Source of the DNA: Actinomycetales bacterium
GTDB lineage: Bacteria; Actinomycetota; Actinomycetes; Mycobacteriales; Micromonosporaceae
Assembly: GCA_002919305.1 (NCBI GenBank)
Contig: PKFB01000041.1
Coordinates: 1-64,000 of the forward strand
DNA: 64,000 nt
Direction of reading: 5' to 3'
The number at the start of each line of letters is the position of its first letter. Position 1 is the first letter of the stretch. This document shows positions 30,038 to 32,161 of this stretch, one piece after another. The notes beneath the pieces were generated by a model. That model worked only from the letters and a program-made list of their open reading frames with translations. It was not told the origin of the DNA and ran no database searches. A program made the position numbers and the translations under genes.

Positions 30038-30799
30038 GTGCGTATCGCTGATCTACCTCCTGAGCGACGTCCCCGGGAGCGGCTGGCCGAGTTGGGCGCG
30101 GAGGCGCTCGGCGACCATGAGCTGCTGGCGGTGGTCCTCGGTAGCGGCGGGGTCCGGGGAGCGGGAGCCCATGTCCTGGCCGAGACGCTGCTGGACAGGT
30201 TCGGGTCGCTGGAGCAGCTCGCGCAAGCCAGCCCCGAGGAGCTAGAGGCGGTCCCAGGGGTAGGGCCGGTCAAGGCCGCCAACATCGTGGCTACGTTCGC
30301 ACTCGGTCGGCGGTGCGTGTCGTCCTCACCGCCACCCGCCTCCCCCTCCACGGGGACCACCATCCCACCGCTGCCTACGCCCCGCTCCGGAGACACCGCG
30401 CCGTCCCCGTCACAGGATCGCGACCTCCAGGCCACTGACCTCCCGGACCCCACCTGCGCTCTCCGCCGCAAGGCCCCGCACGACGTCGTGGCCGCCAGTG
30501 CCGACTCTCCCGGCTCCGACGCCGTCACGTCGGGCACCCCCCAACCCCAGGGTCTTTCCTCCAGAAGGGGTACGCCCGGGCCAGGCGCACCCGTCAGCGC
30601 CGCAGCCGGGCAGGACGCCGCTTCCCATGGCGATGACGAGCAGTCCGACCTGGCGATCCTGGTCTGCCTGGTTCCCGGCTCCCGGTCTGCCGCGTTGTTT
30701 GAGGAGTTCGCGGACCTCGCCGAGGCCACCGGCCTGCGCCTCATCGGACACCTGGTCCTCCCCGCCCGCACCTGGCGTTCAGACCGAACAGACGCGTAG
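30038..30799 (+). CDS. RadC-like protein without the JAMM/MPN metalloprotease domain
   Basis: 253 residues. The first ~90 residues are the N-terminal UPF0758/RadC region (MRIADLPPERRPRERLAELG, ALGDHELLAVVLGSGGVRG) with an HhH motif, EAVPGVGPVKAANI. The MPN domain that should follow, with HxHPSG and Ser/Asp ligands, is absent: residues ~93-205 are a Pro/Ser/Gly/Ala-rich linker. The last ~45 residues (LFEEFADLAEATGLRLIGHLVLP) resemble the final helix and strand of RadC. So the protein keeps its DNA-binding-like half and loses the putative protease. It is followed by the trpS leader ten bases after the stop. Confidence 0.72.
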   Translation: MRIADLPPERRPRERLAELGAEALGDHELLAVVLGSGGVRGAGAHVLAETLLDRFGSLEQLAQASPEELEAVPGVGPVKAANIVATFALGRRCVSSSPPPASPSTGTTIPPLPTPRSGDTAPSPSQDRDLQATDLPDPTCALRRKAPHDVVAASADSPGSDAVTSGTPQPQGLSSRRGTPGPGAPVSAAAGQDAASHGDDEQSDLAILVCLVPGSRSAALFEEFADLAEATGLRLIGHLVLPARTWRSDRTDA

Positions 30800-30814
30800 C
30801 ATCGGGGCGTGCGG

Positions 30815-30850
30815 ATGTCACCGATCTTCCTCGGCTGGTGGTCGCCCTAA
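30815..30850 (+). CDS. trpS leader peptide with tandem Trp codons
   Basis: A short frame, ATG to TAA, encodes MSPIFLGWWSP; two consecutive TGG codons (30836-30841) stand just before the stop. GTG at 30809 in the same frame is an alternative start. GGGG at 30804-30807 is a possible ribosome binding site. Two adjacent Trp codons in an 11-residue peptide upstream of a Trp-tRNA synthetase gene, overlapping the first of four pairing segments, mark an attenuation leader. It senses charged tRNA-Trp by ribosome stalling. Confidence 0.85.
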   Translation: MSPIFLGWWSP

Positions 30851-30912
30851 GGGCGGCTACCTCATCCGCGTACCCAAAGACCGACATGCGGCCGCCCTAC
30901 TCCGGGCGGCCG
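30841..30912 (+). promoter_or_regulatory. Ribosome-mediated attenuator of trpS (segments 1-4)
   Basis: Segment 1 (GTCGCCC, 30841-30847, overlapping the second Trp codon) pairs with segment 2 (GGGCGGC, 30851-30857) around the leader stop codon. Segment 2 can instead pair with segment 3 (GCCGCCC, 30891-30897). Segment 3 within CGGCCGCCC (30889-30897) pairs with segment 4 GGGCGGCCG (30904-30912), a perfect 9-bp stem with a six-base loop. Stalling at the Trp codons would mask segment 1 and favour 2:3 (expression on); completing the leader would cover 1 and 2 and favour 3:4 (off). The 3:4 stem lacks a U-tract, so the termination efficiency is uncertain. Confidence 0.8.
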
Positions 30913-30923
30913 TCGCGCGTGCT

Positions 30924-30968
30924 GAGGGCCTCCGGGTAGGCGGTCGCCTCAAGCCTCAAGGAGCCCTC
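30924..30968 (+). promoter_or_regulatory. Hairpin that can hide the trpS ribosome binding site
   Basis: GAGGGC(C)TCC (30924-30933, one bulge) pairs with GGAGCCCTC (30960-30968), burying the AAGGAG that lies seven bases before the trpS ATG. A small inner stem AGGC/GCCT (30938-30949) fits within it. This would allow translational control downstream of the attenuator; the effect is inferred. Confidence 0.5.
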
Positions 30969-30970
30969 TT

Positions 30971-32161
30971 ATGTCTCGTCGCCTTTCTGGCTTCAAACCG
31001 ACCGGCTACCTGCATCTGGGCAACTACCTAGGCGCGATCCGCCCGATGGTGCGTGCCCAGGATTCACCCGACAGCCACAGAGATCTCCTGTCTGACGCGG
31101 ATATCCCTGGCACAGATATCTTTGCCGCCTCTGGCACGAATACCCCTGATACGGCTGCCCCTAATGCTGCCCCTAATACGGATATCCCTGGTGCGGATAT
31201 CACCCCGCAGGACCCTGTCACGTCACAAGGCCAAGATCATCTGTTTCCTGCCCGACACCGGTCGGAGATCAACAACATCGTGATGGTGGCCGATCTCCAC
31301 GCTTTGACCGTCACACACGATCCAGCCACCATTCAGACTTTCACCCGGCACGTGGCGACCGCACTCCTGGCGGCCGGCGTAGATCCTGACCGGAGTCTGT
31401 TCTTCGTCCAGTCCCACGTCCCGGAACACACCGAACTGCACTATCTGCTGGAGGCCACCACCGGATACGGCGAGGCCCACCGGATGATCCAGTTCAAGGA
31501 AAGGTCCGCTCGAGAAGGCAAAGAGAACATCCGGCTCGCCCTGCTCACCTACCCGGTCCTGATGGCCTCCGACATCCTGCTCTACGACGTTGACGAGGTG
31601 CCGGTCGGCGAAGACCAACGCCAGCACGTGGAGCTCACCCGCACCGTGGCCAGACGGTTCAACCAACGCTACGGCCCTACTTTCGTGGTTCCCCGAGTCA
31701 CATACCCCGTCCACGCCGCCCGGGTGAAGAACCTGTCTGACCCGCGCATCAAGATGGAGAAGAGCAGACCACCCCACACCGGTGTGATCTTCCTGTTGGA
31801 CCCGCCCGACGTGCTGCGTCACAAGATCATGCGGGCAGTCACCGACCAGGAGGCCCAGATCCGCTACGACCCACAGGCGCAACCTGGTATCGCCAATCTG
31901 TTGGAGATCCTCGGGGCCTGTCTCGATCTCCCGCCCGCCACGCTCGCCCACCAATACGGCGGGCAGGGGTATCGCCGCCTGAAGGAGACCGTCGCGGACG
32001 TGGTCATCGAGACCCTCCGGCCGATTCAGCGGCGATACGCCGAATTGGAGCAGGACCCCGCGTACCTGTCCGATGTGTTGAAGGTGTGTGCCGGACGGGC
32101 CCGGGAGTACGCCGCCCAGACCGTGGACAGGGCACGCCGCGCCATGGGGCTACTCCCCTAG
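30971..32161 (+). CDS. trpS: Tryptophanyl-tRNA synthetase with an unusual N-terminal insertion
   Basis: 396 residues versus about 330-340 usual. The HIGH-equivalent is TGYLHLGNYLG (11-21), and KMEKS (about 261-265) stands where KMSKS is expected. Between them residues ~30-98 are a low-complexity Asp/Pro/Thr/Ala insertion that contains a repeated DIPG-x-DI unit (44-50, 71-77) and precedes the Rossmann strand NNIVMVADLHALT. The rest of the catalytic and anticodon domains follows the family (LTYPVLMASDILLYD, GEDQRQHVELTR). AAGGAG lies seven bases before the ATG. Control by the leader-peptide attenuator suggests an inducible, perhaps auxiliary enzyme like the attenuated TrpRS of Streptomyces coelicolor; whether a second trpS exists is not visible here. 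Confidence 0.95.
   Translation: MSRRLSGFKPTGYLHLGNYLGAIRPMVRAQDSPDSHRDLLSDADIPGTDIFAASGTNTPDTAAPNAAPNTDIPGADITPQDPVTSQGQDHLFPARHRSEINNIVMVADLHALTVTHDPATIQTFTRHVATALLAAGVDPDRSLFFVQSHVPEHTELHYLLEATTGYGEAHRMIQFKERSAREGKENIRLALLTYPVLMASDILLYDVDEVPVGEDQRQHVELTRTVARRFNQRYGPTFVVPRVTYPVHAARVKNLSDPRIKMEKSRPPHTGVIFLLDPPDVLRHKIMRAVTDQEAQIRYDPQAQPGIANLLEILGACLDLPPATLAHQYGGQGYRRLKETVADVVIETLRPIQRRYAELEQDPAYLSDVLKVCAGRAREYAAQTVDRARRAMGLLP

Follow-up and report, generated by a model that had tools for sequence, protein, structure and literature searches.

The window, that is, the whole 64,000-nt stretch of DNA analysed here, carries a tryptophanyl-tRNA synthetase gene (trpS) preceded by a short open reading frame with adjacent Trp codons, and this raises the question of how the expression of this gene is controlled. 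A preliminary description of the locus had read it as a ribosome-mediated attenuator, possibly of a second, inducible TrpRS. The sequence comparisons reported below support this interpretation, but add three elements that it had missed: the leaderless start of the leader peptide, a helix at the 5′ end of the RNA (P0), and a helix covering the Shine-Dalgarno (SD) sequence of trpS. As judged from these comparisons, it is highly probable that a ribosome-mediated transcription attenuator controls the auxiliary TrpRS gene. The features of the locus are collected in Table 1.

Table 1. Features of the trpS control region in the window (positions are those of the window)
Feature	Position	Strand	Evidence
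-10 promoter element TAGCAT	30797..30802	+	places transcription start at 30809; TANNNT spacing in relatives
Leaderless leader-peptide ORF GTG...TAA, VRMSPIFLGWWSP	30809..30850	+	sequence; homologous leaders at 20/20 auxiliary trpS loci
P0 5′ strand, GCGGAUG, first leader codons	30811..30817	+	MFE; own-vs-swapped z -7.5; pair counts
Tandem Trp control codons TGG TGG	30836..30841	+	kept as WW or WR
Segment 1, overlapping Trp codons and leader end	30837..30847	+	11-bp stem with segment 2; covariation z -4.3
Segment 2	30851..30861	+	alternative partners: segments 1 and 3
P0 3′ strand, CAUCCGC, in the 2/3 spacer	30863..30869	+	MFE; covariation
Segment 3	30888..30897	+	antiterminator with 2, terminator with 4
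Segment 4, 3′ arm of terminator hairpin, weak U-run here	30904..30913	+	10-bp stem; covariation z -11.5
Anti-Shine-Dalgarno arm of hairpin before trpS	30924..30933	+	pairs with 30960-30968; covariation z -5.4
3′ arm of SD hairpin, with the trpS SD GGAG (30960-30963) and flanking bases	30960..30968	+	sequence, pairing
Auxiliary trpS (tryptophan--tRNA ligase, 396 aa)	30971..32161	+	TIGR00233, second genomic copy, tree

The product of the window gene matched the TIGR00233 model with 286.8 bits (cut-off 176.75). The gene had been proposed to encode a second TrpRS, and the genome indeed contains two trpS genes: the housekeeping copy is located on a separate contig (C13), scores above the window copy with the same model (358 bits) and has no Trp leader in front, the window copy being the auxiliary one. 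Maximum-likelihood phylogeny placed the window enzyme among auxiliary TrpRS (100/98) belonging nearly all to one family, with a named Kutzneria MAG inside, and this clade was sister to the auxiliary TrpRS of Streptomyces (98/98) and separate from the housekeeping enzymes. Judging from this placement, the host probably belongs to Pseudonocardiaceae. The window TrpRS shows a Lys residue (SGFKPTG) at the position equivalent to Gln9 of the Bacillus enzyme, as do most auxiliary enzymes; among 45 class-1 enzymes, this residue is K in 30, T in 11, Q in three and A in one. The site presumably matters for indolmycin resistance, a role reportedly described by Kitabatake in 2002, and the spare TrpRS behind the attenuator is possibly antibiotic-tolerant.

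Comparison of 61 related genomes, with 20 auxiliary trpS genes as first collection, revealed leaders of the consensus [MV]R...W(W/R).P at all 20 loci, that at locus L018 being longer. In four of these leaders (L008, L010, L011, L016) Trp-Trp is replaced by Trp-Arg (TGG CGG), and these, together with the published S. lividans TrpL2 leader with its one Trp codon, indicate that two Trp codons are not strictly required. The -10 box of the window lies six bases before GTG 30809. A TANNNT box was present 6-7 nt upstream (starting at -12/-13) of the first leader codon at 17 of the 20 related loci, compared with a mean of ~0.02 loci per offset at other offsets from the leader start, and no SD-like motif preceded the leader at any of the 20. 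Because of this promoter spacing and the lack of a preceding SD-like motif, GTG 30809 is the most likely first codon of the leader, with the transcript beginning at or next to it, which gives a leader of 13 codons up to the TAA stop at 30848-30850. The preliminary description was right about the two adjacent Trp codons, but its 11-residue leader, read from ATG 30815, most likely has to be replaced: promoter spacing and the position of P0 speak against this start, and ATG 30815 would then be an internal codon.

The arrangement proposed downstream of the leader start, with segment 1 overlapping the leader and mutually exclusive pairs 1:2, 2:3 and 3:4, was present in the window and conserved in the relatives, and the full layout of leader and pairs characteristic of trp-type attenuators was found upstream of 20/20 first-collected auxiliary trpS genes. 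Pairing energies in the window were -20.8 kcal/mol for 1:2 (11 bp; z -4.8 vs shuffles), -17.9 kcal/mol for 2:3 (30851-30857 with 30891-30897, a 7-bp helix with 5 further bp inside; z -1.9), and -23.3 kcal/mol for 3:4 (10 bp; z -4.8), and the fold of RNA 30809-30925 beat all 200 shuffles (z -4.1). A point against attenuation is that the 3:4 hairpin was still preferred in the full-length fold when segment 1 was removed, and therefore antitermination needs co-transcriptional order. Conserved sequence blocks correspond to segment 2 (GGGCGGCC), a spacer such as CATCCGCGTACCC, segment 3 (GCGGCCGCCC) and segment 4 (CGGGCGGCCG), the last often followed by TTTCGC. The lack of a U-run after the 3:4 stem, pointed out previously, holds for the window, where the run is almost absent and the weakest among 47, but it is a local trait, since many relatives keep a short T-run after segment 4, from TTTCGC up to TTTTTCG. 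Also against attenuation, no terminator-like site was found at the window 3:4 stem, although S. lividans trpL2 is likewise reported to lack a U-run; given that the window U-run is the weakest of the 47, termination at this point may be leaky or factor-dependent.

Covariation was assessed in 50 non-redundant elements by comparing the pairing energy of each segment with its own partner and with partners swapped from other genomes. The resulting z values were -11.5 for 3:4, -7.5 for P0, -5.4 for the SD hairpin, -4.3 for 1:2 and -3.2 for 2:3, with control segment pairs within +/-1.7; the shuffles ignore kinship, so that these values are comparative and are not to be read as probabilities. Pair 2:3 is nearly invariant and showed no covariation within trpS class 1, covarying only across classes. 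In a block-by-block pair screen, 3:4, P0 and 1:2 were the top three; z values of the opposite sign, as high as +5.9, were also obtained for some block pairs. Among 82 trpS loci, mainly housekeeping ones, a leader-like ORF turned up once, in a planctomycete, and this single match was taken as chance. Alignment of the upstream regions of relatives, the test set beforehand, thus showed conservation of the Trp codons (WW or WR) and conservation and covariation of the segments; the element is real and far above chance.

P0 joins the first leader codons to the spacer between segments 2 and 3, and it encloses 1:2 in the MFE fold of the window. Its pairing energy in the 50 non-redundant elements was -11.19 kcal/mol with the own partner vs -8.86 kcal/mol with swapped partners (0/5000 permutations; four control pairs quoted beside P0 gave z values of -1.1 to +1.0), and a z value of -5.4 was obtained within trpS class 1 alone. 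Both strands change together, as in GCGAATG/CATTCGC and GCGCGT/ACGCGC, with unrelated sequences in trpE-type leaders. In an alignment of 58 sequences, which was fitted to the structure and leans towards P0, 17 both-sided changes were counted vs 4.9 in shuffles, and 84.7% of the cells were paired vs at most 56% when the strands were slid. P0 was also present in trpE-type leaders and in a second TrpRS class, and in Streptomyces-type leaders it gave a p value of 0.02 (n=7).

The SD hairpin in front of trpS is made up of different pairs elsewhere (GATCTCC/GGAGATC, GTGCTCC/GGAGCAC). Its own-vs-swapped z value, -5.4 overall, was -3.2 in class 1, compared with +0.7 for the housekeeping trpS control, and covariation in seven Streptomyces-type loci was not significant. 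Between segment 4 and the SD sequence, a GCGGYC motif was enriched (20/50 vs 5.5 expected), located at ~30939-30947 in the window; no role was found for this motif before the SD.

With the leader, the segments, P0, the SD hairpin and the promoter position established by sequence comparison, we infer the switching and its signal as follows. The transcript would start at the leader GTG 30809, and a ribosome would load at the extreme 5′ end. When charged tRNA-Trp is plentiful, this ribosome would pass the Trp codons up to the stop codon and cover segment 2, 3:4 would form, and transcription would stop. When charged tRNA-Trp is scarce, through Trp starvation or through inhibition of the housekeeping TrpRS, the ribosome would stall on the Trp codons and cover segment 1, leading to 2:3 instead of 3:4 and to transcription of trpS. 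Established ribosome footprints fit this geometry: with the A site at 30836, the ribosome would extend to ~30849, immediately before segment 2, and at the leader stop codon it would cover segment 2. It is very likely that the switch turns on the spare trpS when charged tRNA-Trp is short. For P0, we infer a function in the absence of a ribosome: it would close over the leader start and, with 1:2, occupy segment 2, so that 3:4 forms by default. P0 would then combine two roles, as an anti-antiterminator and as a cover for the leaderless start codon, which would otherwise be unprotected, and the SD hairpin would probably set a translational threshold for trpS.

Other explanations were weighed against this one. 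The same leader and segments could have a mainly translational outcome, in which access to the trpS SD is switched by alternative pairing through the conserved hairpin at 30924-30968 and 3:4 is no real terminator. The covariation of the SD hairpin, together with the lack of such a signal in housekeeping trpS, and the missing U-run in the window would fit this scheme, and leaderless Cys-codon ORFs in mycobacteria are reported in PMC9031893 to regulate downstream translation by attenuation. Against it, a search for a partner able to open the SD hairpin gave nothing significant once 15 tests were corrected for (z -2.2 and p 0.017 for pairing between segment 4 and the anti-SD arm), 3:4 shows the strongest covariation of all pairs, and T-runs are kept after it in many relatives, which makes a mainly translational switch unlikely compared with transcription attenuation. 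The P0 inverted repeat could also be a DNA-binding site, or reflect a codon constraint at the leader start, rather than an RNA helix, in agreement with the high conservation of the start motif RTGCGGATG among class 1 leaders and with the result of RNAalifold, which left P0 out when run on the alignment of 58 sequences and favoured instead a pairing of the Trp codons with the spacer. However, the two strands covary across genomes, pairing is weakened by swapping and the spacer between them varies in length, so this reading of the repeat appears very improbable.

A T-box, or another tRNA-binding or riboswitch element, upstream of trpS has a precedent in that T-boxes are possible on actinobacterial aminoacyl-tRNA synthetase genes (ileS, PMC1262725). 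However, a scan of the window element against Rfam gave no family of any kind at the gathering threshold, and the conservation observed is explained by a Trp-codon leader with a leaderless promoter and trp-type segments, leaving the probability of such an element negligible.

Regarding distribution of the attenuator, a covariance model built from the 20 auxiliary trpS elements found it throughout the family genomes searched, and nearly all further loci showed the full layout. All but one (orphan L180) of the fetched matches above 56 bits had an auxiliary trpS downstream. Considering matches of 31-45 bits as noise was rejected, those fetched being mostly trpE-type attenuators. The window genome itself (G000) has a leaderless Trp attenuator of this kind on another contig (C26:27033-27151; L143:334-452), with leader VHARLISSWWWPAG, P0 and a 9-bp SD hairpin (GTTCCTTCC/GGAAGGAAC), before a TrpE-like gene that falls below the curated TrpE cut-offs. 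In addition, two of the weaker matches (L153, L154) lie before genes of a second, more distant TrpRS class (30-35% identical), each a leaderless Trp attenuator with P0, the leaders being MRLRANLAWWPS and MHLRANLAWWPS. As a tentative generalisation, and one that we regard as possible rather than probable, actinobacterial Trp attenuators (trpE-type and the two TrpRS classes) might share the P0 lock, hiding the start codon and acting as anti-antiterminator, and the SD-covering hairpin, so that one leader would gate leader translation, termination and gene translation together.

The window element shares its four-segment logic and tandem Trp codons with the E. coli trp attenuator, whose leader has a 5′ UTR with an SD sequence and a U-rich terminator and is not known to have a 5′-end lock. 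Attenuation of an auxiliary trpS is known in Streptomyces from the work of Vecchione and Sello 2010 on S. coelicolor, as cited in PMC4787780, and was predicted in S. avermitilis (PMC1262725). Like the attenuator of the indolmycin-resistant Streptomyces trpRS1, the window element precedes a second trpS and has two hairpins, a poor or absent U-run and a short leaderless leader that carries one or two Trp codons close to its end, and the enzymes belong to sister clades; unlike it, the window leader reads VRMSPIFLGWWSP, compared with MMTRTCTQLWRAA in S. lividans, and belongs to a different actinobacterial family. The leaderless start, here deduced from promoter position only, agrees with the starts measured for S. 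lividans trpL2-trpS, which has one Trp codon and no U-run, and trpL1-trpE (PMC8079986). Trp codons, segments 1-4 and a leaderless start are also found in C. glutamicum trp and Streptomyces trpL1-trpE, and a P0-type helix is shared with the trpE-type leaders examined, that of the window genome included, but actinobacterial trp-operon attenuators control a TrpE or TrpE-like gene and contain up to three Trp codons. In C. glutamicum ilvBNC, the H1 hairpin likewise shields the start region of a leaderless leader and was proposed to be an anti-antiterminator (PMC11857589); that leader contains branched-chain amino acid codons, and H1 is a near-start hairpin, whereas P0 is a long-range helix enclosing 1:2. 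No description of P0 or of the SD hairpin was met in the parts of the Streptomyces trpS attenuator literature compared, Vecchione and Sello 2010 itself lying outside this comparison, and the novelty of both elements is uncertain.

According to these comparisons, attenuator control of a spare TrpRS is found not only in Streptomyces but also, and widely, in a second family of actinobacteria (probably Pseudonocardiaceae). They also show that base pairing constrains the opening codons of these leaderless leaders, which could explain, in a way open to testing, how a transcript lacking a 5′ UTR keeps its leader from being translated when it should not be and how its default state is set.

Several minor observations were made at these loci. 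Orphan L180 (G067:C153:4488-4593) is a degenerate attenuator with no trpS found behind. At L155 (G080) the attenuator is intact, but the reading frame of the auxiliary trpS that follows spans no more than 142 aa from the start codon; the same locus also contains a match to the C-terminal part, pointing to a frameshifted, decayed or misassembled gene. An insertion of ~70 residues (31066-31270) with GATATCCCTGG-like repeats follows residue 30 of the window TrpRS, which is 396 aa long vs mostly 320-357 aa in relatives. Directly upstream of the control region lies a radC-like gene (30038-30799), in which RadC models match the N-terminal UPF0758 and HHH parts only, and whose middle part, where the catalytic motif would be expected, seems to have given way to low-complexity sequence.
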